In this document: piece by piece, positions 53,136 through 64,000 of the stretch | How positions within the stretch are numbered: the first letter of the stretch is position 1 | Layout of the letters: every line of letters starts with the position of its first letter | Assembly (NCBI GenBank): GCA_008107755.1 | Contig: VIRH01000072.1 | Span: 124,001 to 188,000 of the forward strand | Length of the DNA stretch: 64,000 bases | Direction of reading: 5' to 3' | Source of the DNA: Rhodobacterales bacterium | GTDB taxonomy: Bacteria; Pseudomonadota; Alphaproteobacteria; Rhizobiales; Stappiaceae | Translations under genes and position numbers: made by a program | The notes under the pieces: model-generated | Databases searched by the model: none | Seen by the model: the letters and a program-made list of their open reading frames with translations, nothing else | What the model was told of the DNA's origin: nothing

Positions 53136-53522
53136 TCAATCCGGCTCCGCAATCAAGCTCACATGAGCGGCCACAACTTTCCAGCCGTCAGGCGTCCTGA
53201 TCCAGGTCTGCATCTGCCGGCCGACCTTTCCCGGCGCACTGTCACGGTAGAACAGGGTTGAGGCTGTTGCCATGTCCCGGCCATATGTTGTGATCACCGT
53301 TCTGTCCAGACGCCGGGCCAGATCGGCTCCCGGCCGTGCGGACCGGAATTCCGCGATTTCGCTGTAGCCATAGAGATTTTCACCGCCACCATAGCGGATC
53401 GTCGTCGGCGCATTGAGAAACAGCCGGTCAAGCGTCTCGACATCGTTGGTGATGAGCGCGGTTTCGTAATCTTGAAAGGCCGCCTCGACCTCTTTCTTCA
53501 CGTCGGGAATGTCCATTTCCAT
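53136..53522 (-). CDS. AtzH/HpxZ-like (DUF3225, SnoaL-fold) protein
   Basis: 128 residues from the ATG at 53522, which shares a base with the stop of the cyclo-ligase gene; GTG at 53525 is an alternative. SnoaL-like cone fold: VKKEVEAAFQDYETALITNDVETLDRLFLNAPTTIRYGGGENLYGYSEIAEFRSARPGADLARRLDRTVITTYGRDMATASTLF. Members include AtzH, a 1,3-dicarboxyurea deaminase of cyanuric-acid breakdown, and HpxZ of oxalurate breakdown. As an AtzH it would act directly after AtzE. Last gene of the 53-63 kb cluster; convergent with the GGDEF/EAL gene. Confidence 0.87.
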   Translation of the reverse strand: MEMDIPDVKKEVEAAFQDYETALITNDVETLDRLFLNAPTTIRYGGGENLYGYSEIAEFRSARPGADLARRLDRTVITTYGRDMATASTLFYRDSAPGKVGRQMQTWIRTPDGWKVVAAHVSLIAEPD

Positions 53523-54292
53523 CACAGGGATGCCCCACCGGTTTCAAGTCGTTCTCTCAGGGTTCTCAGGAAGGGGATGTCCCGATACTGATCCGCCTGG
53601 ACCTCGTCCCAGGCGACCCCGTGCGGCTGGGGGAAAGGCGTGTTCGTCTGGATCAGCTCAACCTCCGTCGCAATCGCATCGAGGGCACTGTCGTGTCCCA
53701 TCATGGGCAGGGCCGCGTCCGCGACGACCTGCGAAGAATGCACCGTCGTCGTGATCGGCGCATCGGCTTTCAGCTTGCCGAGTTCCCTGAAGATCCCGAG
53801 TTCGAGATCGGCGAACCCGCCGCCTTTGCCGGTGCGCCCGCCGTTACGGCTGACGGCAACGCAGCCGACGACCACGAAATCGAGGGGTTCCATGTCCTCG
53901 AACTCCACCGGGTCGCCGTATTCGACGAAGCCTTGTGATGTCGCCGCCAACTCGAACTGGATGCCTTTTCCCTCGAGCTTTTCAGGATCCAGCCGGACGA
54001 AGGGAAACGGCCTGAGCAGCTCCGGCACGGGCGCATAGACGATCTTGCCCTCGTAAAGCGCGCGAAGGCGCACCGGGATCTGCGGTGGATCAGGATTGCA
54101 CTTGACGGTTCTCGCCGACTGCCACGACGCGAGCCGCGAGAGGTTCAGCGCGGCCATGTCCGCACCGGCGAAATTCGGAATCCGGCTGTCGGCGGGACCG
54201 ACATTGACGCCGGTTTTCTCCAGCGTCGTCCAGATGCGGTTTCGCAGCACATCCTTGTCGGAATTGCGGCCGGCCCAGCGCGCGTTTTCCAT
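53522..54292 (-). CDS. Divergent 5-formyltetrahydrofolate cyclo-ligase-like protein
   Basis: 256 residues from the ATG at 54292 with AAAGGGGAAAGC upstream. MTHFS-type features: KDVLRNRIWTTLEKTGV at the N-terminus and SRNGGRTGKGGGFADLELGIFRELG, the counterpart of the GxGxGxYD ATP/folate loop. The catalytic end part (HSSQVV, DIATEVELIQTNTP) is seen. Standard MTHFS has about 190-200 residues; this longer form resembles the MTHFSD-like branch. It may release 5-formyl-THF or bind a formyl donor. It overlaps atzH by one base and sits 17 bases after the amidase gene. Role in the cluster is inference. Confidence 0.8.
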   Translation of the reverse strand: MENARWAGRNSDKDVLRNRIWTTLEKTGVNVGPADSRIPNFAGADMAALNLSRLASWQSARTVKCNPDPPQIPVRLRALYEGKIVYAPVPELLRPFPFVRLDPEKLEGKGIQFELAATSQGFVEYGDPVEFEDMEPLDFVVVGCVAVSRNGGRTGKGGGFADLELGIFRELGKLKADAPITTTVHSSQVVADAALPMMGHDSALDAIATEVELIQTNTPFPQPHGVAWDEVQADQYRDIPFLRTLRERLETGGASL

Positions 54293-54309
54293 TGCTTTCC
54301 CCTTTGCTG

Positions 54310-55728
54310 CTAGCTGCTCGTTGCAAGTGGATCGGCGACCGGGGCCGCGGTAATTCCGTCTGAGGCAAGCTGATGCGCCACCCGCAAGGCGAAATTCTCC
54401 CGCCATGCCGGTGCGATCACCTGAACACCGACCGGCAGGGCCGCCCCGTCCAGCCACACCGGCACGGAAACGACCGGCAGACCGATGAAGGAAATCGGCT
54501 GGGTGAAGATGCCGATGTTCGGCCGGGCCGGCAGCGTCTCACCGCCGAGCGTCACGTTTTTCGTGCCAGACGGCAGCGCCGGAAACGGCGTCGCCGGCGC
54601 AAGAATGATGTCCACATGCTCGAAGATGCCGTGCATCATTGAACGGAACCAGCTTCTGAACCGCTGGGCCTGCTGTACCCAGACCCCCGGCACCATGGCT
54701 CCCGACAGGAACCGGTCGCGCGTCTCGGGATCATAATCCTGCGGCCGCGTTCTGATCCGTCCAAGGTGGAAGTTGGAGCCCTCGGTCGTGGTGATGACAT
54801 AAGCCGCCGCGCGGGCCCTCGCCGCCTCCGGTATGTCGATTTCCGCCGAAGCCTCAAGCGCCGCAGCAACCTTGTCGACGGCCGCGAGCACTTCCGGCTC
54901 CGCCCTGTCGCGGAAATAGCCGCCGGCGACGGCGACCCTGAGACCGGCAACGCCCTTGTCGAGGTCGCCGAGTGTCTGCAGTGCCGCGCAGTCCGCCTGC
55001 GCCGGATCAGCCGGGTCATCGCCCTGCAGAACATCAAAGACCAGCGCCAGATCCTCCGGCGAGCGCGCAAGCGGGCCCAGATGATCAAGGCTGCCGACGA
55101 AGGGAAAGGTGCCGTGCCGGGACAGCCTGCCATACGTCGGCTTCAGCCCGTAGAGACCGCAGAAGGACGCTGGCACGCGAATGGAACCGTTGGTATCCGA
55201 GCCAAGGCTTACCGGCACGAGCCCGGCGGCAGTCGCAGACCCGCAGCCGGAAGAAGAACCACCGCTCATGCGCCCGGTGTCATGCGGGTTCAGGCAATTG
55301 CCATCATGGGCGTTCTCGCCCGTAAAGTCATAGGCGAATTCGCCCATGTGCAGCCCGCCCATCAGAACACCACCTGCATCCGTCAGCTTGCGGACCAGCG
55401 TCGCGTCATCCCGTGCAGGAGAATTGTCGAGATTGATCTTCGAACCGGCGCGGGTGACCAGCCCGTCGATGTCGAAGAGGTTCTTCACGGCAAAGGGAAC
55501 GCCCGCAAGTGGCAAGTCGGCACCATCGGCAAGTGCCTTGTCGACGGCGGAGGCATCGCAGAGCGCGCGCTCTGCCGTCACATCCGTGAAAGCATTGATG
55601 TGCGGGTTGATCCTGTCGATTTCCGCAAGCGATGCCCGGGCAATCTCAAGCGCGCTCACAGCGCCTCCCCTGACCGCGGAGGCGGTCTCCGCAGCGGTCA
55701 TCTTCTTCAGGTCCTGCGAGGCGCTCAT
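54310..55728 (-). CDS. AtzE-family amidohydrolase (amidase signature)
   Basis: 472 residues. The Ser-cisSer-Lys triad of the amidase signature family is visible: Lys in GVPFAVKNLFDIDGLVTRAGS (about residue 80), the Ser pair in GRMSGGSSSGCGSATAAGLVPVSLGSDTNGSIRVPASFCGLYGLKPTYGR (about 155-180). Close to AtzE (1-carboxybiuret amidohydrolase) and HpxY. A small AtzG-like gene overlaps the start by 4 bases, and an AtzH-like gene lies downstream, the same gene company as in cyanuric acid and oxalurate loci. Substrate: a carbamoylated or ureide compound by inference. Confidence 0.9.
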   Translation of the reverse strand: MSASQDLKKMTAAETASAVRGGAVSALEIARASLAEIDRINPHINAFTDVTAERALCDASAVDKALADGADLPLAGVPFAVKNLFDIDGLVTRAGSKINLDNSPARDDATLVRKLTDAGGVLMGGLHMGEFAYDFTGENAHDGNCLNPHDTGRMSGGSSSGCGSATAAGLVPVSLGSDTNGSIRVPASFCGLYGLKPTYGRLSRHGTFPFVGSLDHLGPLARSPEDLALVFDVLQGDDPADPAQADCAALQTLGDLDKGVAGLRVAVAGGYFRDRAEPEVLAAVDKVAAALEASAEIDIPEAARARAAAYVITTTEGSNFHLGRIRTRPQDYDPETRDRFLSGAMVPGVWVQQAQRFRSWFRSMMHGIFEHVDIILAPATPFPALPSGTKNVTLGGETLPARPNIGIFTQPISFIGLPVVSVPVWLDGAALPVGVQVIAPAWRENFALRVAHQLASDGITAAPVADPLATSS

Positions 55729-55910
55729 GGCAGAAACACCGGAGCGGCTTCGACATCGTCATCAAGCGGAAAAGACATCAGCAGGTCCGCCGCATTTGCC
55801 GTCGCAGACATATTGGCGACGACGGACGGACGCCACTCCTCCTCTATCTTCAGTCCCATGGTCTTTTCCATGAGCGCCACATGAGCTTCGGCGTCGAACG
55901 TCTCGTTCAT
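55725..55910 (-). CDS. AtzG-like small subunit (DUF4089)
   Basis: 61 residues, all helical: MNETFDAEAHVALMEKTMGLKIEEEWRPSVVANMSATANAADLLMSFPLDDDVEAAPVFLP (shown here only as a description of composition). The pattern of an N-terminal helix, WRPSVVANM and a closing PLDDDVEAAPVF segment matches AtzG/HpxX, GatC-like partners that bind the AtzE-type amidase. It overlaps the amidase gene by 4 bases (ATGA). Confidence 0.85.
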   Translation of the reverse strand: MNETFDAEAHVALMEKTMGLKIEEEWRPSVVANMSATANAADLLMSFPLDDDVEAAPVFLP

Positions 55911-55926
55911 TGCATTCCCTGTTCTG

Positions 55927-56604
55927 TCATATTTGTTGGGTGTTTCTTACCGCACGGTGGAAGGCATCTAGAGAGGCCGTCCAGCCGACGATGCCTCCCT
56001 GCGCGCGGATCATGTCGAGTGTTGCGGCCTTGAAGGCCGGGAAATAGCTTTCCGTCGCCTCTTCGATCAGCAGGCATTCGAAACCGCGGTCATTTGCCTC
56101 CCGCATGGTCGTCTGCACACAGACTTCCGTAGTGACGCCGGCTAAGACGAGGCTCTTCGTGCCGAGCTGTGACAGCGTGTCAGCAAGAGGCGTTGCGTAG
56201 AAGCCCCCCTTGCCAGGCTTGTCGATGACGATCTCACCTTCTCTGGCAGCGCATTCGGCGATGATCTCGGCCCCCGGCTCGCCGCGGATCAGGATCCGGC
56301 CCATTGGCCCGTCGTCGCCGATCCGCAGCGACGGGTTGCCCCGCTCCCGCTTGGCAGGCGGGCAATCGCCGAGGTCGGCAGCATGGTTTTCTCGCGTGTG
56401 AATGACCGGCCAGCCTGCCGCCCGGAACAATTCCAGCAGTGTCTTTGTCGGTCCGATGGCCCGCTGCATGTGCGAGATGTCATTGCCAAGGGTTTCGCCG
56501 AATCCGCCCGGTTCGATGAAATCGCGCTGCATGTCGATCACGATCAGCGCAACGGAAACCGGATCGAACCCGAATGCGAAGGGCTGTGCCTCGACCGTGA
56601 TCAT
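55927..56604 (-). CDS. Isochorismatase-fold cysteine hydrolase (second paralogue)
   Basis: 225 residues. Catalytic triad: Asp in [11 protein letters not shown], Lys in IVIDKPGKGGFY, Cys in [23 protein letters not shown], with a cis-peptide region before it. Length and motifs put it with biuret/ureidoacrylate/N-carbamoyl hydrolases. The ATG shares a base with the preceding ATPase stop (TGATG). It is paralogous to the gene at 58377: both share HTRE.H..DL.D.P and a GRIL.RGEPG.EII stretch. Likely hydrolyses a urea-type amide and releases ammonia; the substrate is unknown. Confidence 0.88.
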   Translation of the reverse strand: MITVEAQPFAFGFDPVSVALIVIDMQRDFIEPGGFGETLGNDISHMQRAIGPTKTLLELFRAAGWPVIHTRENHAADLGDCPPAKRERGNPSLRIGDDGPMGRILIRGEPGAEIIAECAAREGEIVIDKPGKGGFYATPLADTLSQLGTKSLVLAGVTTEVCVQTTMREANDRGFECLLIEEATESYFPAFKAATLDMIRAQGGIVGWTASLDAFHRAVRNTQQI

Positions 56605-58145
56605 CAGTGGTGCCCCGCCATGGCGTGTCCGATCGTGGCGCGATCCGTCCGGGCCATCGGCGACTGATAGGTGATGCGCCCCTCCGACATCACCGCAACG
56701 GTGTCGGCAAGCTCCAGGATCTCGTCGAGATCCTCCGAGACGAGCAGGATCGCCGCGCCCTTGTTGCGCTGGTCCATGATCTGGCCCCGAATTTCCGCGA
56801 CAGAGGCAAAGTCGAGGCCGAAACAGGGGTTGGCGACAATCAGGACGTCGACATTGCCCGACAGTTCGCGCGCCAGGATCGCGCGCTGCACATTGCCGCC
56901 GGAAAGGTTCTCGATCGGCTCCTCGGTGGAAGGAGTCTTCACCCTGTAGGAGGAGATCAGCTCCCGCGCCCTCTTTCGCATCGGGTGGGGTGACAGCCAG
57001 CCGCGAAAGGGCGAGATAGGCGCCTTGTCGAAGGTGCGGAAGGCCATGTTTTCCGCAACGCTCATGCGCGGCACGGCGACGTTGCGCAGGGGTTCTTCTG
57101 AAAATCCGAAGACCTTGAAACGGTCCATCTGGTCCCGTTCGGGCTCATAGGGCTTCTTGTCGATGAAGAGGCGCCCGTCTCGCAGCGGCCGCTGTCCGGA
57201 CAGCACTTCGATCAGCTCCGACTGGCCATTGCCCGAGACGCCGGCAATGCCGAGGATCTCGCCCTCATGGATCTTCAGGCTGATCGCCTCGATCGCCGGC
57301 AGCTCTTCGTCGTCATCGGCGAAAAGACCCGCCAGTTCCAGTTTCAGCTTCCTTTCCGGCTGTGCGACACGCGCCGCACTCTCGCGAATCTCGGTTTCCC
57401 CGATCATCATCCGGCTCATGTCCTGCACCGAAAGATCGGCAACCCGTCCGCCGCCGACCACCTTGCCACGGCGAAGAACCGTGACATCGTCCGCGTAGGC
57501 GGTCACCTCGCGGAATTTGTGCGAGATCATCAGGATGGTCAGTTCACCCGCCTCCGTCATGCCGCGCAACAGCCCGAGAACCTCGTCCGCCTCGTCCGGC
57601 GTCAGCACGGACGTTGGCTCATCCAGAATCAGGAAGCGCTGGTCGAGATAAAGCTGTTTCAGGATCTCAAGCTTCTGCTTCTCTCCGGCAGAAAGCCCAG
57701 AAACCGGAATGTCGAGCGGCACCTTGAACGGTGTGGTCTCCAGAAAGGTATTGAGACCGGCGCGTTCCTTCTTCCAGTCGATGACAGAGGGCGTGTCGGT
57801 CCGGGCAATCACAAGATTTTCCGCTGCCGTCAGCGAGGGCACAAGCGTGAAGTGCTGGTAGACCATACCGATGCCGATGGCATGCGCTGCCTTGGGGTTA
57901 GGCACATCGACGACCTTGCAATCGACCAGCATGTCGCCGCGCGTGGGCTGATAGAACCCCATCATGCATTTGACGAGCGTGGACTTGCCTGCGCCGTTTT
58001 CCCCCAGAAGCGCATGAAACGAGCCGGGCTTGACCCGGATCGACACGTCATCCAGCGCCGTGAGGCTGCCGAAGATCTTTGTCATTCCGACAGTCTCGAC
58101 CCCGATGGCCCTGGGAGCCGGCTCCAGTTTTTCTGCAACGCTCAT
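56604..58145 (-). CDS. BMP/nucleoside-type ABC importer, tandem ATP-binding subunit
   Basis: 513 residues from the ATG at 58145; the longer frame runs into the intergenic repeat. Two ABC domains: the first with GENGAGKSTLVKCMMGF, LSAGEKQKLEILKQL and FLILDEPTSVLTPDEAD; the second with GVSGNGQSELIEVLSG, LSGGNVQRAILAREL and VLIVANPCFGLDFASV. The second site has degenerate Walker features (GVSGNGQS, ANPCFGLD), as is normal for sugar/nucleoside-type double ATPases. It energises the two permeases at 60142 and 61065. Confidence 0.92.
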   Translation of the reverse strand: MSVAEKLEPAPRAIGVETVGMTKIFGSLTALDDVSIRVKPGSFHALLGENGAGKSTLVKCMMGFYQPTRGDMLVDCKVVDVPNPKAAHAIGIGMVYQHFTLVPSLTAAENLVIARTDTPSVIDWKKERAGLNTFLETTPFKVPLDIPVSGLSAGEKQKLEILKQLYLDQRFLILDEPTSVLTPDEADEVLGLLRGMTEAGELTILMISHKFREVTAYADDVTVLRRGKVVGGGRVADLSVQDMSRMMIGETEIRESAARVAQPERKLKLELAGLFADDDEELPAIEAISLKIHEGEILGIAGVSGNGQSELIEVLSGQRPLRDGRLFIDKKPYEPERDQMDRFKVFGFSEEPLRNVAVPRMSVAENMAFRTFDKAPISPFRGWLSPHPMRKRARELISSYRVKTPSTEEPIENLSGGNVQRAILARELSGNVDVLIVANPCFGLDFASVAEIRGQIMDQRNKGAAILLVSEDLDEILELADTVAVMSEGRITYQSPMARTDRATIGHAMAGHH

Positions 58146-58192
58146 GGTCTTTTTTCCTGTTGCTTTCCCACGGTGCTCTCCTCCGCCTTCCC

Positions 58193-58300
58193 CCTCATCC
58201 TGAGGAAGCGCGCAAGCGCTGTCTCGAAGGATGGGCGGCGAACTCCAGAGCAAGTCGCCCATCCTTCGAGACGGACCTGAAGGTCCTCCTCAGGATGAGG
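58193..58300. repeat. Long palindromic intergenic repeat element
   Basis: A 108-base near-perfect inverted repeat: CCTCATCCTGAGGA at the left end answers TCCTCAGGATGAGG at the right, and CTCGAAGGATGGGCG answers CGCCCATCCTTCGAG near the centre. Each arm has a small inner hairpin (AGCGC-GCAA-GCGCT and ACC-TGAA-GGT). This type of CTCATCCTGAGGA...CTCGAAGGATG palindrome occurs in many alphaproteobacterial genomes (from recall). It lies between the cysteine hydrolase and ATPase genes inside the cluster and may affect mRNA stability. Confidence 0.88.
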
Positions 58301-58376
58301 CTGCGGTCGTCGAGACGTTTTGTGGCTTCTCGAGACCTCTGTATCCGGGCACACCCCGCTCCAACACCCGCATCCC

Positions 58377-59105
58377 TCACGCCGCCACCGCTTTCAGGCC
58401 CGCGAGAAACCTGGCACTGTCTGCGACCGCCCCGAAGACGCCGCCCTGCATGGTGACCATCTTGAGAGCCGCCTCGTGGTTGCCCTTGTCGGTGGCCGCG
58501 CAGCAGTCGGAAAGGATCAGGCATTCGAAACCGCGATCGTTCGCCTCGCGCATGGTCGTGTGCACGCAGACATCCGTCGTGATGCCCGTCAGCACGATGT
58601 TCTCGATCCCGCGTGTCCGCAGAAGCAGTTCCAGATCCGTCGCGCAGAACGATCCCTTGCCTGGCTTGTCGATAATCGGCTCTCCGGGCCCCGGTGCGAG
58701 TTCGGGGATAATCTCCCAACCGGGCTCGCCCCGAACCAGTATCCTGCCGCATGGGCCGGGATCGCCGATGCCGGCGCCGATGCGGCGAGAGCGCCAGCGC
58801 TTGTTGGGAGGCAGGTCGGAAAGGTCCGGCCGGTGGCCCTCACGCGTGTGGATGACGTGATAGCCTGCCGAGCGCATCGCCGACAGGACCGCTCTGATCG
58901 GTTCGATCGGCGCGCGCGTCAGGGAGATGTCATAGCCCATACTGTCGACATAGCCGCCAGGCCCGCAGAAATCGGTCTGCATGTCGATGACGATCAGTGC
59001 CGTGTTGTCGGGTCTCAGGTCACCGTTATAGGGCCACGGGTAGGGATCGGCGGCAACGGGTCCGCCGACGTCTTCGGCAGGGTTCAGCTCTTCGGCAATA
59101 CTCAT
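58377..59105 (-). CDS. Biuret/triuret-hydrolase-like cysteine hydrolase (first paralogue)
   Basis: 242 residues from the ATG at 59105. The N-terminus includes [39 protein letters not shown], which strongly recalls triuret and biuret hydrolases. The catalytic Asp is in VIDMQTDF, Lys in [17 protein letters not shown], Cys in [25 protein letters not shown]. It would hydrolyse a urea-type amide, releasing ammonia. It starts 5 bases after the formamidase stop. About 45% visible identity with its paralogue at 55927 is my estimate by eye and should be measured. Confidence 0.9.
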
Positions 59106-59110
59106 CCCGC

Positions 59111-60130
59111 TCACTCCGCCGCATCGCTGAGGGTCTTGTCGCGGTAGACCCGCGTCGGCGCCTCGAAACCGCAGGAGGTGCCGTCCGTGTGCACCACCTC
59201 GTCTTCCCACGGCAGCCTGTATTTGCCGGCGGCAAGATCGGTCATATAGGTGTAGGGGCAATCCTGCGCCCCGCCCTTGACGGCGACGTAGCCACGATGG
59301 CCGAACTGGTAGATGTTGTTTTCCACGCCCCAGTTCACCCGGGCCTCGCGCACCAGATCCGGACGGACCTCGGCGGTGATGATCTCGTTCGTCCGGCCGC
59401 TGGTTCCGTGGGCCATGATGGTGCCGTCGAAATTGACAATCATTCCCTCGCCCATGCTGTCGAAGGTTCCATCCGTGCCGCACATGCACACGTTGGCTGT
59501 GACCATCAGATTGCAGAAGGCGTTGGCCTGATTGGTGAATCGCCAGCTCTCGCGGATCGGAGCAGTGTAGCCTGCCGTGCGGATCATGATCTCCGCGCCC
59601 TTGTAGGCGCATTCGCGGGCCATTTCCGGAAACATGCCGTCGTGACAGATGATCAGCGCCATCTTGCAGCCATTCGGCCCGTCGATCACCGGAATGCCCT
59701 GATCGCCCGGTTCCCAGGGCTCGACCGGCACCCAGGGGTGCATCTTGCGGTAATAGAGCTTCAGCTCGCCCGTGTTGTCGATGATCAGCCCGGAATTATA
59801 CGGCATGCCGCCGGGGTTCAGCTCCATGATGGAGAAACAGCCCCAGATGTCGTTGTCGACGCAGGCCTTCTTGAACGCCTCGACCTCCGGCCCGTTCAGG
59901 TCGCACATGATGTCCGGATTGGTGTCCATGGACAGCCCGTGCAGCGCGTATTCGGGAAAGACCACCATGTCCATGGTCGGCATGTTGCGCCGTGCCTTGG
60001 CGACCATATCGACGATGACCTGCGTCTGGCACGCCAGGTCGCTTTCCGTCACGACGGTCGGCAGCTGCAGCTGCACCATGCCGAGCACCACACCGTTCGG
60101 GGATTTGTTCAGACCTCCAAGTCCGCTCAT
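59111..60130 (-). CDS. amiF: Formamidase (AmiF-type, nitrilase superfamily)
   Basis: 339 residues from the ATG at 60130 with AAGGAG upstream. Catalytic Glu in [13 protein letters not shown], Lys in [18 protein letters not shown], Cys in [22 protein letters not shown]. The C-terminal run [45 protein letters not shown] is shared with the H. pylori formamidase AmiF, as I remember it, and distinguishes it from the longer-tailed AmiE aliphatic amidase. It hydrolyses formamide to formate and ammonia. A nearby cyclo-ligase-like gene would fit formyl metabolism. Preceded by the permease at 60142. Confidence 0.9.
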
Positions 60131-60141
60131 GGTCTCGCTCC

Positions 60142-61065
60142 TTATTTGGTGATCGACAGTTCGCCCGGCGCGCCCTTCAGGGAGCGGCGCGGCGAGGTGC
60201 TGGCGATCATGATGATGAGGGTGAGGATGTAGGGCGCGGCATTGAAGAAATGATAGCCGCGCGAAATGCCGATGGACTGCAGCGCCGGGCCAAGAGCGCC
60301 GGCTGCACCGAAGAGAAGGGCCGCCCAGAAGCAATAGATCGGGTGCCAGCGGGCGAAGATCACCAGCGCCACCGCCATCAGCCCCTGTCCGGAGGAAAGC
60401 CCTTCGGTCCAGCTGCCCGGATAATAGAGCGACAGGAACGATCCGCCGACGCCTGCGAAGAACCCGCCGGCCATGGTCGACAGGAGACGCACCTTGTTGA
60501 CGTTGATCCCGAGCGCCAGCGCCGCCGGCGCACTGTCGCCTGTGGTGCGGATGATCAGGCCGTAGCGAGTGTTCTTGAGCGCCCACCACAGGAAGATGGC
60601 CAGGACGATACCCAGCAGAAACAGCGGGTTGATTTCCAGAGCCTGACGAATGCCCGGATGATCGCTCCACCCGCCGAAGGAGATCGACGGCAGACGTGGC
60701 GCAGACGGCTGGATGTAGGCCTTTCCGAAGAAGAACGCGAGCCCGGTACCGAAGAGCATCAGCGAGATGCCGATGGCAATGTCGTTGACCTTGGGCAGCT
60801 TGCACAGGAAGCCGTGCAGCGCACCGAAGCCTGCGCCGCAGATACCGGCGACAAGGACGCCCAGCCACGGCGAGCCGGTGTGATAGGAAATCGCGTATCC
60901 GGACATGGCACCGAAGACGAGCGTCCCCTCAAGCCCGAGATTGATGCGGCCCGACTTTTCGGTGAGCATCTCGCCGAGGCTAACGAAGAGGAACGGCGTC
61001 GACACGCGGATCGCCCCGGCAAACATCGCCAGAAGCACGGTCATCAGTCCGGGTTCCTGGCTCAT
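60142..61065 (-). CDS. BMP/nucleoside-type ABC importer, permease 2
   Basis: 307 residues from the ATG at 61065, sharing one base with the stop of permease 1 (TGATG). About nine helices; conserved GRINLGLEGTLVFGAMSGYAISYHTGS and LALGINVNKVRLLSTMAGGFFAGVGGSFLSLYYPGSW, the latter being the cytoplasmic ATPase-contact region of BPD_transp_2 permeases. Works with permease 1, the tandem ATPase and the BMP-type binding protein. The frame is open farther upstream, but the overlap sets the start. Confidence 0.9.
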   Translation of the reverse strand: MSQEPGLMTVLLAMFAGAIRVSTPFLFVSLGEMLTEKSGRINLGLEGTLVFGAMSGYAISYHTGSPWLGVLVAGICGAGFGALHGFLCKLPKVNDIAIGISLMLFGTGLAFFFGKAYIQPSAPRLPSISFGGWSDHPGIRQALEINPLFLLGIVLAIFLWWALKNTRYGLIIRTTGDSAPAALALGINVNKVRLLSTMAGGFFAGVGGSFLSLYYPGSWTEGLSSGQGLMAVALVIFARWHPIYCFWAALLFGAAGALGPALQSIGISRGYHFFNAAPYILTLIIMIASTSPRRSLKGAPGELSITK

Positions 61066-62177
61066 CACCGGTCTCCTTTCGGCTTGAAGAAGGACAGGCG
61101 CCCGTAGAAGGTCTCGGACACGAGAATGACGATGAACAGCAACCCCTGCAGCACCAGAACCGTCGCATCCGGCAGATCCATGCGCCGCTGCACAAGTCCG
61201 CCCGAGGCCGCAATGCCGCCGAGGAAGATCGCCACCGGCACGATGACCAGCGGATTGTGGCGGGCAAGGAACGACACGAGAATGCCGGTGAAGCCGTATC
61301 CGGCGATCAGCGAGGCATTGGCCTTGCCGTGGATCGCCGCGACCTCGAAGAAACCGGCAAGACCGGCGCAGGCGCCGGCGATGGCACAGGCCACCACCAT
61401 CAGCTTGCCGACCGGCAGGCCCTGTGCCTGCGCGGCCCGAAGATTTCCGCCTGCGATCTGCGCCGCGAAACCGAAGGTGGTGCGGTTCATGACGAGGTAG
61501 AGGAGGACGCACAGAAGCACCCCGACGATCAGCCCCCAGTGAACGTCCGTCCCCGGAATGACACCGATCATGTTCTCCGACCCGATGGGCCGCGTCGACG
61601 GCTTGTTGGGATCGGAAGGATCTCTCAGAAGGCCTTCGACGAAGAAATTCAGGACCGAGACGGCGATATAGAACATCAGCAGCGAGGCGATGGTCTCATT
61701 GACGCCGCGATAATGGCGAAGCGCCCCGACCGCGCCGATCCAGATCCCGCCGGCAGCGATCGCCGCCACTACCATGACCGGCAGAAGCACGAAAACAGGT
61801 GCCCAGTCGATCATCGGGACAGCAATTGCGGCTGCCGCAAAGCCGCCAAGGACGAGAGCCCCCTCGCCGCCGATGATGACCAGTCCGAGGCGCGCGGGAA
61901 TGGCAACGCAGAGCGCGGTAAAGATCAGCGGCGCGGACCGTACGAGCGTGTTCTGCCAGGAAAAGCTGGTGCCGAAACCGCCCCGCCAGACCAGCGCAAA
62001 GAAATCCGCTGGCGACTTTCCCAGCGCGAGCAGGAAGATGGAAAACAGGACGCCGGAAACGATCAGCGCCAGGATCGGAATGACGACATATTCAGCCGAT
62101 CTCCGGAACCTGTCCTGAAGCTCGGCCAGCAGTCCGGTCTGCATTGCCAGAGCGGGAGTTTCGGTGGTGTCCGTCAT
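61065..62177 (-). CDS. BMP/nucleoside-type ABC importer, permease 1
   Basis: 370 residues. Long cytoplasmic N-terminus, then about nine helices (IPILALIVSGVLFSIFLLALGKSPADFFALVWRGGFGTSFSWQNTLVRSAPLIFTALCVAIPARLGLVIIGGEGALVLGGFAAAA). The family contact motif is near GGNLRAAQAQGLPVGKLMVVACAIAGACAGLAGFFEVAAI. Larger than permease 2, as is usual for this pair. Its product with permease 2 forms the channel. Confidence 0.9.
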   Translation of the reverse strand: MTDTTETPALAMQTGLLAELQDRFRRSAEYVVIPILALIVSGVLFSIFLLALGKSPADFFALVWRGGFGTSFSWQNTLVRSAPLIFTALCVAIPARLGLVIIGGEGALVLGGFAAAAIAVPMIDWAPVFVLLPVMVVAAIAAGGIWIGAVGALRHYRGVNETIASLLMFYIAVSVLNFFVEGLLRDPSDPNKPSTRPIGSENMIGVIPGTDVHWGLIVGVLLCVLLYLVMNRTTFGFAAQIAGGNLRAAQAQGLPVGKLMVVACAIAGACAGLAGFFEVAAIHGKANASLIAGYGFTGILVSFLARHNPLVIVPVAIFLGGIAASGGLVQRRMDLPDATVLVLQGLLFIVILVSETFYGRLSFFKPKGDR

Positions 62178-62231
62178 GCCGGTACCTGTCTATTACAAGG
62201 GGTCAACGGATCGCGCACTGCGCGGGGAAGG

Positions 62232-62277
62232 AGCCGCCCGGTGGCCTGGCTCCATGGAGAGCAGGCTTCGGGCGGCT
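62232..62277 (-). repeat. Nested stem-loop between binding-protein and permease genes
   Basis: Three stacked stems: AGCCGCCCG/CGGGCGGCT outside, GCCTG/CAGGC in the middle, and the CTCCATGGAG palindrome at the centre. It occupies most of the 116-base gap after the binding-protein stop. There is no T run, so it is more likely an mRNA-stability or attenuation element than a full terminator. Confidence 0.6.
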
Positions 62278-62293
62278 GGAGTGTGATCCCGGA

Positions 62294-63406
62294 TCAGGTA
62301 ATCGAACCGGAGACGCCTTCGATCAGGTAGTCGGTCTGGTCGAGAGCCGGCTCGTAGTTGTCGAAGCTTTCGCCCTCGGCGAGAAGCACCGAGCCGTCCT
62401 GTTTCTTGATCGGCCCGACAAAGATCGGCGCGCCGCCCTTGACCTCTTCGCGAGCCGCATCGGCGACGGCAATTGCCTGCTCCGTCGCTCCGGCGCCATA
62501 GGGCGTGTTCTGAACGAAGTCGACGTCGAAGCCGCCACCGGTGAAGTTCGGCAGGGGTTCTCCGGCAGCAAGGTCCGCGGCAAACATCTTGTAGATGGTT
62601 TCCCACTTGTATTCCGCACCGGTGATGAAGCCGTTGGGCGCAAGCGGCGCCTGGGAGGCATTGTGGCCGCAGCACTTGATGCCGCGGGACTCGGCGGTCT
62701 CGATCACCACCTTCGGTCCGTCAACATGACAGGTCAGCACGTCGCAGCCTGCGTCGACCAGAGCGTTGGCGGCTTCCGCCTCACGCACCGGCATCGACCA
62801 TTCGCCGGTGAAGATCACCTGTACGGTCGCGTCCGGATTGACCTTGCGCGCGCCCAGCAAAAAGGAGTTGATGTTGCGCAGGACGGTGCCGATGGGTTTC
62901 GCCGCGACGAAGCCGAGCTTGTTGGACGTGGTGGAAAGACCCGCGGCAATGCCGTCGATGTAGTGGGCCTGGTCGAGGTAGCCGAAGTAACTGCCCGCAT
63001 TCTTCGGATCGCCTTCGGTCCACAGCGGCGCGGCATGTCGAAACTCCACGTCCGGATATTTTGCGGCCAGATCCAGAACGAACGGCTTGTAGTAGCCGAA
63101 GGAGGTCGCGAAGATCATGTTGGCGCCGTCGAGATTGATCATCGACTCCATCGACTTCTCGACCGCGATGGTTTCGGGAACATTCTCTTCCTCGACGACG
63201 GTCACGCCGGGCACTTCTTTCAGGGCGGCGGCTGCAACCGCATGCGCCTGGTTCCAGCCGAAGTCGTCGCGCGGACCGACATAGACGATACCGACGGTCA
63301 GATCGGACGCATGAGCCAGTCGGGAGAGACCAGTACCCGAAAGCAGGGTGAGACCCGCAGCAGACGATTTCAGCAGGGTACGGCGAGAGAAATCAAGCTT
63401 AGACAT
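62294..63406 (-). CDS. BMP-family ABC importer substrate-binding protein (Tat-exported)
   Basis: 370 residues from the ATG at 63406 (GGAGGACGG ribosome site). Twin-arginine signal (FSRRTLLKSSAAG). BMP/Med family pattern: VGIVYVGPRDDFGWNQAHAVAAAAL, NMIFATSFGYYKPFVLDLAAKYPDVEF, GYLDQAHYIDGIAAGLSTTSNKLGFVAAKPIGTVLRNINSFLLGARKVNPDATVQVIFTGEW. Other BMP proteins bind nucleosides or related compounds. No lipobox was seen, so it is a soluble periplasmic form. First gene of the 53-63 kb cluster. Ligand unknown. Confidence 0.92.
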   Translation of the reverse strand: MSKLDFSRRTLLKSSAAGLTLLSGTGLSRLAHASDLTVGIVYVGPRDDFGWNQAHAVAAAALKEVPGVTVVEEENVPETIAVEKSMESMINLDGANMIFATSFGYYKPFVLDLAAKYPDVEFRHAAPLWTEGDPKNAGSYFGYLDQAHYIDGIAAGLSTTSNKLGFVAAKPIGTVLRNINSFLLGARKVNPDATVQVIFTGEWSMPVREAEAANALVDAGCDVLTCHVDGPKVVIETAESRGIKCCGHNASQAPLAPNGFITGAEYKWETIYKMFAADLAAGEPLPNFTGGGFDVDFVQNTPYGAGATEQAIAVADAAREEVKGGAPIFVGPIKKQDGSVLLAEGESFDNYEPALDQTDYLIEGVSGSIT

Positions 63407-63670
63407 TCCGTCCTCCATTATTAAGACGAAGGCGCGCCGTCTCCGGCCGCTTCGACTGGCCTCCTCGCTCTTCGGAGCAAGGCTTGTGCCAAAAGGTTTG
63501 TGGCGAACTTCCTTGGGTGTTCCTCTTTCAGGCTGATGGATACGTGCAATCGCGTGCCGGTTTCCTCACTCTGCGGCGAGGTCGCGTTGGGAATCTGCTG
63601 TGCAGGCCACCCGGCTTTGCTTAGCTTTTAATCAGAACTCCATATGATCAACTGACAGTCATTTTCCCGA

Positions 63671-64000
63671 TCAGGCACGTTTCGCCTTCACCGGCTCGTA
63701 GCTTGCGTCCAGTTTGTATTTCAGATAGTCGGCCCCGCTGATCGGCGGGTATTTCGCTGGCCGCGCCGCATCCATGCAGCCCGGCAGACAGGCGACGTCC
63801 GCATCCGGGTTCGGATCCAGGAAGAAGGCGATCGAGTAGCGCTCGCGTCCACTGGAATTGACAACGCGGTGCGGGGTCGAAACGTAGATATCGTTGGTCC
63901 AGCGCATCAGGCAGTCGCCGATGTTGCAGACGAAGGCCCCTTCGATCTTCGGCGCCTTCAGCCAGACCCCGTCCCTGCGCCGCACCTCCAGCCCGCCAAC
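63671..64000 (-). CDS. Isopenicillin-N-synthase-family 2OG-Fe(II) oxygenase, C-terminal part
   Basis: Open to the right edge; only the last 109 or so residues are present. The distal iron-binding His and the 2-oxoglutarate RxS motif are visible in STPHRVVNSSGRERYSIAFFLDPNPD, typical of IPNS-like dioxygenases. The start and the HxD motif lie beyond 64000. It is on the same strand as, and 264 bases upstream of, the BMP importer cluster. It may belong to the same pathway, but the 264-base gap could hold a promoter for the cluster. Confidence 0.85.
   Translation of the reverse strand, partial: VGGLEVRRRDGVWLKAPKIEGAFVCNIGDCLMRWTNDIYVSTPHRVVNSSGRERYSIAFFLDPNPDADVACLPGCMDAARPAKYPPISGADYLKYKLDASYEPVKAKRA

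Follow-up and report, generated by a model that had tools for sequence, protein, structure and literature searches.

The window, the whole stretch of 64,000 nucleotides that was analysed, derives from a bacterium related to Roseibium and carries a cluster of 11 genes, all on the minus strand, spanning positions 63418 to 53136. The gene order is BMP, permease A, permease B, AmiF, BiuH, tandem ATPase, TrtA, AtzG, AtzE, FCL and AtzH. Gene calls, Pfam and NCBIfam confirmed the sequence-only reading of eleven same-strand genes of these families, with the ATPase assigned by NCBIfam alone and FCL by Pfam alone. The importer comprises a BMP-type substrate-binding protein (62294-63418, with an alternative start at 63406; PF02608, 112.7 bits), ABC permeases A (61065-62177) and B (60142-61065; both PF02653), and a tandem ABC ATPase (56604-58145) which scored 402 bits against NF047930, under the cut-off of 670. 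Touching or overlapping junctions had been described for the majority of the genes, and 8 of the 10 junctions do overlap or measure no more than 17 bp. Wider gaps separate BMP from permease A (116 bp) and BiuH from the ATPase (231 bp), and the second of these contains a 45-bp inverted repeat, 80% complementary (58193-58300, no strand). The window closes with the 3' end of OG2, a DIOX_N/2OG-FeII oxygenase (63671-64000, minus strand; whole gene L003:11671-12639), and the allophanate hydrolase AtzF is encoded upstream of OG2, outside the window (L003:12661-14484). Because OG2 and AtzF both lie upstream on the same strand as the cluster, the interval 53136 to 63406 given earlier does not cover the entire unit.

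The two cysteine hydrolases had been likened to biuret and triuret hydrolases, and this likeness was borne out. The assignment of CysH1 (58377-59105) as a predicted biuret hydrolase, BiuH, is supported by the curated cut-off and specificity residues, and that of CysH2 (55927-56604) as a predicted triuret hydrolase, TrtA, by specificity residues. BiuH scored 429 bits against NF050097 (cut-off 370) and 418 bits against its best solved relative, 6azo, and the BiuH-type residues (Tyr at TrtA positions 35 and 41, Asp160 and Val205, with the Asp-Lys-Cys triad) were found in 46/46 rows. CysH2 falls below the BiuH cut-off (241 vs 370 bits) and matches the 6xix TrtA structure with 277 bits, as against 189-205 for BiuH structures. 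With TrtA defined by the triad Asp24-Lys129-Cys162 together with F35, N41, E72, K132, E160, Q202 and I205 (PMC7948467), all 11 residues checked were kept in 48/48 aligned rows. AtzE (54310-55728), of the 1-carboxybiuret hydrolase family, exhibits a TIGR02715 score of 651 bits (cut-off 425.75), a linked AtzG-like small subunit (55725-55910; PF13318, 62.6 bits) and, among solved chains, a best match to AtzE itself (6c62, 474 bits). AtzH/HpxZ (53136-53522), a predicted 1,3-dicarboxyurea decarboxylating amidohydrolase, scored 189 bits against PF11533 and, with 191.7 bits against NF033625, passes the HpxZ cut-off of 135; AtzG, at 29.6 bits, is under the HpxX cut-off of 70. The equivalents of AtzH Tyr22 and Arg46 were kept in 46/46 rows, as were the pocket residues R63, R73, Q106 and Q108, with R66 kept in 44/46 and R96 in 45/46. 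The upstream AtzF (751 bits, cut-off 511) consists of an amidase plus a C-terminal AH_C domain (PF21986).

A route from triuret through carboxybiuret and 1,3-dicarboxyurea to allophanate had been proposed; it fits the AtzG-AtzE-AtzH set, its last enzyme is the AtzF found just outside the window, and as a prediction it is well supported. TrtA would convert triuret to 1-carboxybiuret, AtzE-AtzG would deaminate this to 1,3-dicarboxyurea, AtzH would decarboxylate the latter to allophanate, and AtzF would carry out the last step, on allophanate. BiuH would capture biuret, another (spontaneous) product of carboxybiuret. AtzE and AtzH travel together (34/35), a pairing compatible with carboxybiuret and oxalurate readings alike, and in G290 AtzH is present behind a divergent amidohydrolase.

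The predicted formamidase AmiF (59111-60130; NF009803, 575 bits, cut-off 406) has 5g3o and 2dyu as its nearest solved relatives. Residues E60, K129, W133, E137 and C162, which include the Glu-Lys-Cys triad, were kept in 34/35 rows, the one other row being gapped. AmiF is missing from 11 of 43 complete loci; an anti-association between AmiF and AmH (Fisher 0.017) was weak, one among several tests, and was set aside. FCL (53522-54292) is a divergent 5-formyl-THF-cyclo-ligase-like protein by fold and by Pfam (PF01812, 70 bits). Its AlphaFold model has a pLDDT of 88.8, and the 12 best matches of the fold search were 5-FCL/MTHFS-type chains. While it shares the fold and Pfam family of 5-formyltetrahydrofolate cyclo-ligase (MTHFS), it is longer, and by sequence it gave a single, marginal match to solved chains (1wkc, E 7e-4).

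Conservation of the gene set in other genomes, on which the earlier proposal depended, was found. Of 87 same-family genomes, 20 carry TrtA (>300 bits), BiuH and AmiF (>600 bits) together, and the remaining 67 have weaker matches to them or none; because the three share exactly the same 20, the grouping of the cluster genes is far beyond chance. The BiuH/AtzD operon on plasmid pRL10 of R. johnstonii (leguminosarum) 3841 likewise has the order BMP-permease-permease-formamidase-BiuH-ATPase-TrtA, but with AtzD between BiuH and the ATPase, a cupin 3' of TrtA and the importer pocket Y-S-F-Q-W-H-D, and FCL, AtzG, AtzE, AtzH, OG2 and AtzF had no match in the 20 kb around it. The claim that a formamidase and a purine-type importer are combined in no known pathway therefore does not hold, since this operon has both, in the same order. 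The same core is also present in other plasmid operons, and no OG2 or 8-oxoguanine deaminase is annotated around the R. johnstonii-class operons that share this formamidase. The window has the core order of that class but not its pocket or cupin, and carries AtzG-AtzE-FCL-AtzH at the place of the cupin. Judged from its genes, we assign the window operon to a second class of R. johnstonii-type operons, which we found undescribed and which is characterized by a W-type pocket, AtzG-AtzE-FCL-AtzH, often OG2 and sometimes an upstream 8-oxoguanine-deaminase-family gene. The carboxybiuret step thus shows a module swap, cupin vs AtzG-AtzE-AtzH.

Three other systems bear comparison. The TrtA-BiuH-AtzF pathway of Herbaspirillum sp. 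BH-1 has in common the triuret to carboxybiuret chemistry, BiuH and AtzF, but there carboxybiuret goes to biuret by decarboxylation, aided by TrtB, whereas in the window AtzE-AtzG-AtzH is predicted to lead to allophanate (PMC7948467). The atzDGEHF and atzRSTUVW genes of Pseudomonas sp. ADP also combine an AtzG-AtzE-AtzH-AtzF module with a BMP-type importer that has a purine-binding protein (PMC6219798, PMC6834077); the window importer pocket differs from it at 4 of 7 contact positions, and in the window carboxybiuret would be supplied by TrtA. Nitrifier contigs with bmpA-nupABC/trtA/biuH/atzF place the same importer type beside TrtA, BiuH and AtzF, but with TrtB; that paper names AtzE as a tree reference, and its main text contains no word starting with formamid- (PMC12625717).

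The best solved relatives of the BMP protein are Brucella 3s99 and AtzT 6pi5. At the positions of the AtzT guanine site it carries W55, S106, F107, T178, W207, H231 and D233, so that the pocket of the window class reads W-S-F-T-W-H-D, two positions changed from the R. johnstonii class. In AtzT, guanine is held in an aromatic sandwich (PMC6834077), which is kept in the window pocket. Triuret and biuret are planar too, and an aromatic pocket is therefore no proof of a ring ligand; the ligand is likely a purine-like heterocycle or fragments thereof. Among loci picked by TrtA or AmiF, FCL tracks the W-type pocket, being found in 18/19 such loci vs 0/9 with the R. johnstonii class pocket; G290 has a W-type pocket without FCL, and L085 is a ureide locus with FCL yet a third pocket, Y-S-Y-P-W-H-D. 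In the FCL tree, proteins from ureide contexts group strongly (8 changes vs 25 when shuffled) yet not as one clade, and the idea that FCL marks the ureide pathway and nothing else was rejected. Five loci (L069, L071, L076, L077 and L084) have FCL and a same-pocket importer with no ureide enzyme in the 20-kb stretch examined. Because the distribution of FCL matches that of the importer better than that of the ureide enzymes, its substrate is probably the imported ligand. A class-wide genome search found FCL in 3 of 289 genomes, too sparse a distribution to be used.

In the 20 same-family genomes with the cluster, OG2 adjoins it in 15 and is missing there in 5, and six genomes have OG2 (>530 bits) without TrtA. 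Of 31 related genomes, 10 have an NF006055 gene (8-oxoguanine deaminase family) as the same-strand neighbour directly upstream of OG2 or BMP, five of the ten cases having been visible before the genomes were chosen (5/26 among the others). These genes scored 620-639 bits against a cut-off of 532: 630.7-637.0 in L032, L050, L055 and L059, and 620-639 in six further loci identified via whole-genome matches. L048 was left out of this count, and a relative in L060, below the cut-off at 395 bits, was not counted. The amidohydrolase neighbouring the cluster in the window itself scored 167 bits, far under the cut-off. As the solved relative 7ww2 carries two names, 8-oxoguanine deaminase and hydroxydechloroatrazine ethylaminohydrolase, the family name may mislead on the true activity. 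In L116 (a Hoeflea MAG), the window-side amidohydrolase, DUF1989, GntR and flavin-reductase matches and a second BMP are grouped just upstream of the NF006055 gene. Amidohydrolases are located 3' of AtzH in L027, L034, L035 and L081, plus L021; the two that were scanned, from L027 and L021, were under all cut-offs. The genome from which the window comes has an OG2 paralogue in a separate cluster, together with a BMP importer, an NF006055 protein and what by eye resembles an adenosine deaminase. This genome also encodes an OHCU decarboxylase, which points to the usual urate route.

We give roughly even credence to the reading that the locus is a conserved TrtA-BiuH-type operon with purine-like import and predicted hydrolysis of triuret, biuret and formamide, likely scavenging nitrogen from oxidised purines; the evidence is gene order, family membership, conserved specificity residues and co-inheritance, all drawn from sequence. 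Ammonia, CO2 and formate are the predicted end products when these enzymes hydrolyse the three compounds. The nitrogen would likely be drawn from damaged purines because several relatives bear an 8-oxoguanine-deaminase-family gene beside the cluster, and the suggested link to an oxidised purine gains circumstantial support from the upstream NF006055 genes. We infer this purine feed, which is the least certain part of the proposal. Weighing against the reading are the clusters that lack OG2 or AmiF, the adjacency of NF006055 in no more than 10/31 genomes, the low score of the window's own neighbouring amidohydrolase, the operons of the R. johnstonii class with no OG2 or deaminase nearby, and the OHCU decarboxylase. 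A purine minus C5 and C6 would leave the chain N1-C2-N3-C4-N9-C8-N7. This chain would be triuret if C8 bears oxygen (urate-type, e.g., after 8-oxoguanine deamination); if C8 bears hydrogen, cutting the purine in this way would instead release biuret for BiuH and formamide for AmiF. OG2 is a candidate starter of such a cut, although we know of no enzyme that removes C5/C6 of a purine. It is unlikely, but worth stating, that the operon supplies the later steps of a purine route not yet described, in which OG2 starts C5/C6 removal, 8-oxopurines end as triuret for TrtA and 8-H purines as biuret plus formamide for BiuH and AmiF, and FCL acts as an ATP-driven N-formyl cyclo-ligase that re-closes ring-opened formamidopyrimidines from the W-type importer. 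Such a route, if true, would give triuret its first biological origin and function, and a conserved operon linking TrtA, BiuH, a formamidase, a BMP importer, an Fe/2OG oxygenase and, in several lineages, a gene of the 8-oxoguanine deaminase family makes the biological source of triuret testable. Among the matches listed in the open-licence literature, no paper linked either formamidase or 8-oxoguanine deaminase to the metabolism of triuret or biuret, and the place of a formamidase and a cyclo-ligase-like protein in ureide metabolism was not discussed. One biosensor review contains the words formamidase and biuret.

A rival explanation, which we take seriously but doubt, is a plain ureide scavenger: ready-made triuret, biuret or cyanuric acid would be imported (from fertiliser, urea pyrolysis or amoebal crystals), as one would expect for the R. 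johnstonii 3841 operon, OG2 and the deaminase being unrelated neighbours and the formamidase an extra amide hydrolase. Triuret is a urea fertiliser impurity and forms crystals in amoebae (PMC7948467), and the whole core occurs with AtzD in R. johnstonii 3841 and again in the other plasmid operons. Against this, the importer pocket of the window class is altered at two positions, NF006055 genes are directly upstream in 10/31 genomes, and FCL is left without explanation. The window's own genome gave no PF09663 (AtzD) match, which also speaks against it, though the control matched nowhere either and the result is not proof; an AtzD-based cyanuric acid feed was set aside for this genome with the same reservation.

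It is rather improbable that AtzG-AtzE-AtzH acts as HpxX-HpxY-HpxZ on oxalurate, a purine oxidation product, alongside BiuH and TrtA. AtzH does pass the HpxZ equivalog cut-off, and the AtzG-E-H set may be older than the cyanurate operon (PMC6219798), but AtzG remains under the HpxX cut-off, the nearest solved chain to AtzE is AtzE itself, and the set directly follows TrtA, the enzyme that forms the substrate of AtzE, at the point where other operons carry the cupin. Very improbable is a role of FCL and the importer in salvage of thiamin or N-formyl pyrimidine breakdown products, with the ureide genes co-operonic for another reason. The window FCL presumably belongs to the COG0212 branch. In tables of two papers, FCL-type proteins of COG0212 appear as not 5-FCL and in thiamin salvage (PMC3223725, PMC5041015). 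In Roseicitreum a LysR-FCL-BMP group with the same pocket is oriented divergently to a gene cluster for thiamin synthesis that includes TenA, but this is the single such locus among those examined, the substrates of BiuH and TrtA are no parts of thiamin, and 50 of 80 FCL relatives have BiuH or TrtA no more than 10 kb away.

The cluster in the window is a real, conserved and nearly complete triuret/biuret operon, and constitutes a new class of the already known kind of operon that encodes triuret hydrolase (TrtA) and biuret hydrolase (BiuH). The window occupies positions 124001-188000 of contig C98 in a source genome of 6.1 Mb, whose nearest named relatives, as judged by the 5-formyl-THF-cyclo-ligase-like protein (FCL), are Stappia and Roseibium. 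All eleven same-strand genes described in the sequence-only reading were found, on the minus strand (63418..53136), in the order BMP (the substrate-binding protein of the importer), permease A, permease B, formamidase (AmiF), CysH1, ATPase, CysH2, AtzG, AtzE, FCL and AtzH. Their tight packing is interrupted twice, by 116 bp after BMP and by a 231-bp gap that separates CysH1 from the ATPase and contains a 45-bp inverted repeat (58193-58300). The operon exceeds the window: a 2-oxoglutarate/Fe(II) oxygenase (OG2; DIOX_N/2OG-Fe(II) oxygenase) and an allophanate hydrolase (AtzF) of 607 aa lie just upstream on the same strand. The latter passes two curated cut-offs and has an AH_C domain, and thus the final enzyme missing from the first reading is present. 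Past it are a divergent LysR gene, a COG0402-type amidohydrolase and a DUF1989 protein of the urea-amidolyase-associated family (score below cut-off); the last two adjoin or overlap (L003:15571-18080, in own-genome DNA beyond the window end), and in L013, L031 and L116 the cluster has a close relative of this amidohydrolase next to it. At 9-16 kb past the window end (L004:1522-7460) are a liv-type ABC importer, recognized by eye, and a cytosine-deaminase-like amidohydrolase that scored under every NCBIfam cut-off.

CysH1 is identified by sequence as BiuH, scoring 429 bits against the curated BiuH family (cut-off 370) and 418 bits against the solved BiuH 6azo. CysH2 is nearest to TrtA among solved structures, at 277 bits versus 189-205 for BiuH structures. 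The catalytic and specificity-setting residues used for comparison are named in the accessible part of the TrtA paper (PMC7948467): CysH2 keeps D24, F29, F35, N41, E72, K129, K132, E160, C162, Q202 and I205 in 48/48 aligned rows, and CysH1 has the BiuH alternatives Tyr, Tyr, Asp and Val at the specificity positions in 46/46. Tyr22 and Arg46 of AtzH, which the available portion of PMC6219798 implicates, are conserved in all 46 AtzH rows, and the Glu, Lys and Cys of AmiF in 34 of 35, the remaining row being gapped. AtzE passes its subfamily cut-off, with 6c62 as best solved relative. Because the enzymes match characterised relatives, the predicted chemistry runs from triuret through carboxybiuret, 1,3-dicarboxyurea and allophanate to ammonia, which lends support to the route as far as allophanate that had been proposed at the outset.

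Conservation of the gene set was assessed in two samples. Among 80 relatives fetched by FCL, 50 have BiuH or TrtA within the stretch covered, and 43 of these ureide loci hold BMP, BiuH and FCL together; these 43 include AmiF in 32, TrtA in 39, AtzE in 35 and AtzH in 36. Independently of FCL, TrtA (>300 bits) with BiuH was found in 20 of 87 same-family genomes, and AmiF (>600 bits) in the identical 20 (Fisher 4e-20, uncorrected for kinship among the 87 genomes). Of the 20, 15 have OG2 adjoining the cluster and 18 have FCL, which occurs in just one further genome, G347. FCL is missing from two of the 20: G346, with BMP-perm-perm-AmiF-BiuH-ATPase-TrtA-cupin-AtzF and a divergent LysR gene (L096), and G290, with OG2-BMP-perm-perm-AmiF-BiuH-ATPase-TrtA-AtzG-AtzE followed by a divergent amidohydrolase, in the FCL position, and then AtzH (L095). 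Two TrtA matches contain stop codons inside the aligned stretch (G350:C1:1452165-1452830 and G357:C21:45596-46261), and are possibly decayed copies or a gene-end effect.

The suggestion that formamidase and a purine-type importer fit no known pathway did not hold. The pRL10 operon of R. johnstonii 3841 (GntR, BMP, permease, permease, formamidase, BiuH, AtzD, ATPase, TrtA, cupin), whose BiuH gene we take to be the characterised one of this strain, contains both, so both belong to a known operon. AtzF is included in this operon according to the accessible text of PMC7948467; that of PMC5806882, in which BiuH of this strain is characterised, reports no atzF close by, and the word formamidase is absent from both papers. 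No AtzF was seen in the 20 kb read around the pRL10 operon. Similar operons with cupin occur in Rhodobacteraceae SC52, Peteryoungia, Sulfitobacter and R. tumorigenes, and in R. acidisoli without AmiF; that of Enterobacter roggenkampii lacks cupin, and that of Azospirillum gave no AmiF or cupin match and has AtzE and AtzF matches on the opposite strand. The E. roggenkampii locus (L104), from a plasmid of a human blood isolate, reads AtzF-BMP-perm-perm-formamidase-BiuH-ATPase-TrtA-GntR with transposase genes flanking both sides; the ureide operon thus reaches an enterobacterial plasmid too. In the window class, AtzG-AtzE-FCL-AtzH stands where the R. johnstonii 3841 class has cupin, and cupin was never seen together with AtzE among the loci searched for cupin. 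In one FCL locus (L023), TrtA and a match to the cupin profile (94 bits) occur without AtzE, so FCL and cupin are able to coexist.

The two classes also differ in the importer pocket. The guanine contacts of AtzT are Y45, S97, F98, E165, W194, N218 and N220 (PMC6834077, accessible part), and the window BMP has W, S, F, T, W, H and D at these positions. Where loci were selected through TrtA or AmiF, this W-type pocket (T, once M, at the fourth place) occurs in 19 of 20 same-family genomes; the twentieth, G346, and all eight plasmid loci read have Y-S-F-Q-W-H-D. FCL accompanies 18/19 W-type and 0/9 Y-type loci, which are related, so that the Fisher value of 1.4e-6 is no probability of function. 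Nearly all loci picked by FCL have T or S at the fourth position; a third pocket, Y-S-Y-P-W-H-D, occurs in one of them, L085. FCL also stands beside a W-type importer at seven loci with no ureide enzyme in the stretch covered (L069, L071, L076, L077, L084, L107 and L137); FCL therefore tracks the importer, and probably follows its ligand. A second BMP protein of the source genome, ~8 kb past the window end (L004:12-1142), has the pocket W-S-F-L-W-H-D; nearby genes include one with a flavin-reductase domain (L003:19227-19892) and GntR genes, a set similar to one in L116; no permease genes of matching kind were seen within 6 kb beside it.

The operon is likely fed by purines. A gene of NF006055, a family named 8-oxoguanine deaminase, is the immediate upstream neighbour of OG2 or BMP in L031 (copy cut by the locus end), L032, L050, L055 and L059, and whole-genome coordinates, on contigs whose lengths agreed, add L033, L042, L047, L054 and L078. 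This amounts to 10 of the 31 genomes searched behind named loci among the 50 ureide loci, or 5/26 excluding the five cases known beforehand, and the ten span about eight genera. NF006055 copies are common in these genomes (above cut-off in 10/10 of one set searched and in 18/22 of another, which includes the source genome), and immediate same-strand adjacency in ten genomes is unlikely to have arisen by chance. In L116, which comes from a Hoeflea MAG, a group of genes just upstream of NF006055-OG2-BMP matches the window-side amidohydrolase (561 bits), DUF1989 protein (518), GntR (230) and flavin reductase (309) and includes another BMP protein, scoring 511 bits against that of the window, so the window-side neighbourhood is itself conserved. 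The NF006055 genes of the window genome lie elsewhere, on contigs C65 and C79, the C79 copy being clustered with a further BMP importer, an adenosine deaminase look-alike (by eye) and an OG2 paralogue. Among solved structures, OG2 comes closest to an ethylene/succinate-forming-type enzyme, to 6jyv and to thymine dioxygenase; 6jyv is presumably PA0147, whose gene would lie close to that for 8-oxoguanine deaminase in P. aeruginosa.

Judging from the structures, removal of C5 and C6 from a purine would leave the chain N1-C2-N3-C4-N9-C8-N7. With C8 oxidised this chain would be triuret, and the identical cut with C8-H would yield biuret and formamide, so that TrtA, BiuH and AmiF together would cover the products. 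We know of no enzyme that removes purine C5 and C6, and OG2 is at most a candidate for this cut. The natural source of triuret is described as unknown, with purine or urate oxidation hypothesised, in the accessible part of PMC7948467.

The structure model of FCL, presumably a COG0212 protein, has a pLDDT of 88.8, and the first twelve places in its fold search are 5-FCL/MTHFS-type structures (TM by target 0.63-0.73). Three of these are chains of 1ydm, titled only as a structural-genomics target, which we assume to be of this type. Published tables list such COG0212 proteins as other than 5-FCL and connect them with thiamin salvage (PMC3223725 and PMC5041015, accessible parts). One locus, L137 on a Roseicitreum antarcticum plasmid, shows this link: LysR-FCL-BMP, with a W-type pocket, is divergent from a thiamin synthesis cluster of TenA, ThiF-like, thiE, thiG, thiS, FAD oxidoreductase, thiD and an ABC importer. 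We can square this thiamin context with purines only through a speculative N-formyl/ortho-amino chemistry common to both. FCL relatives in L036, L038, L040, L046 and L052 have further contexts that vary by locus, with a PhnS/PotD-like importer, ADP-ribosylglycohydrolase, creatininase or 2OG oxygenase as neighbours.
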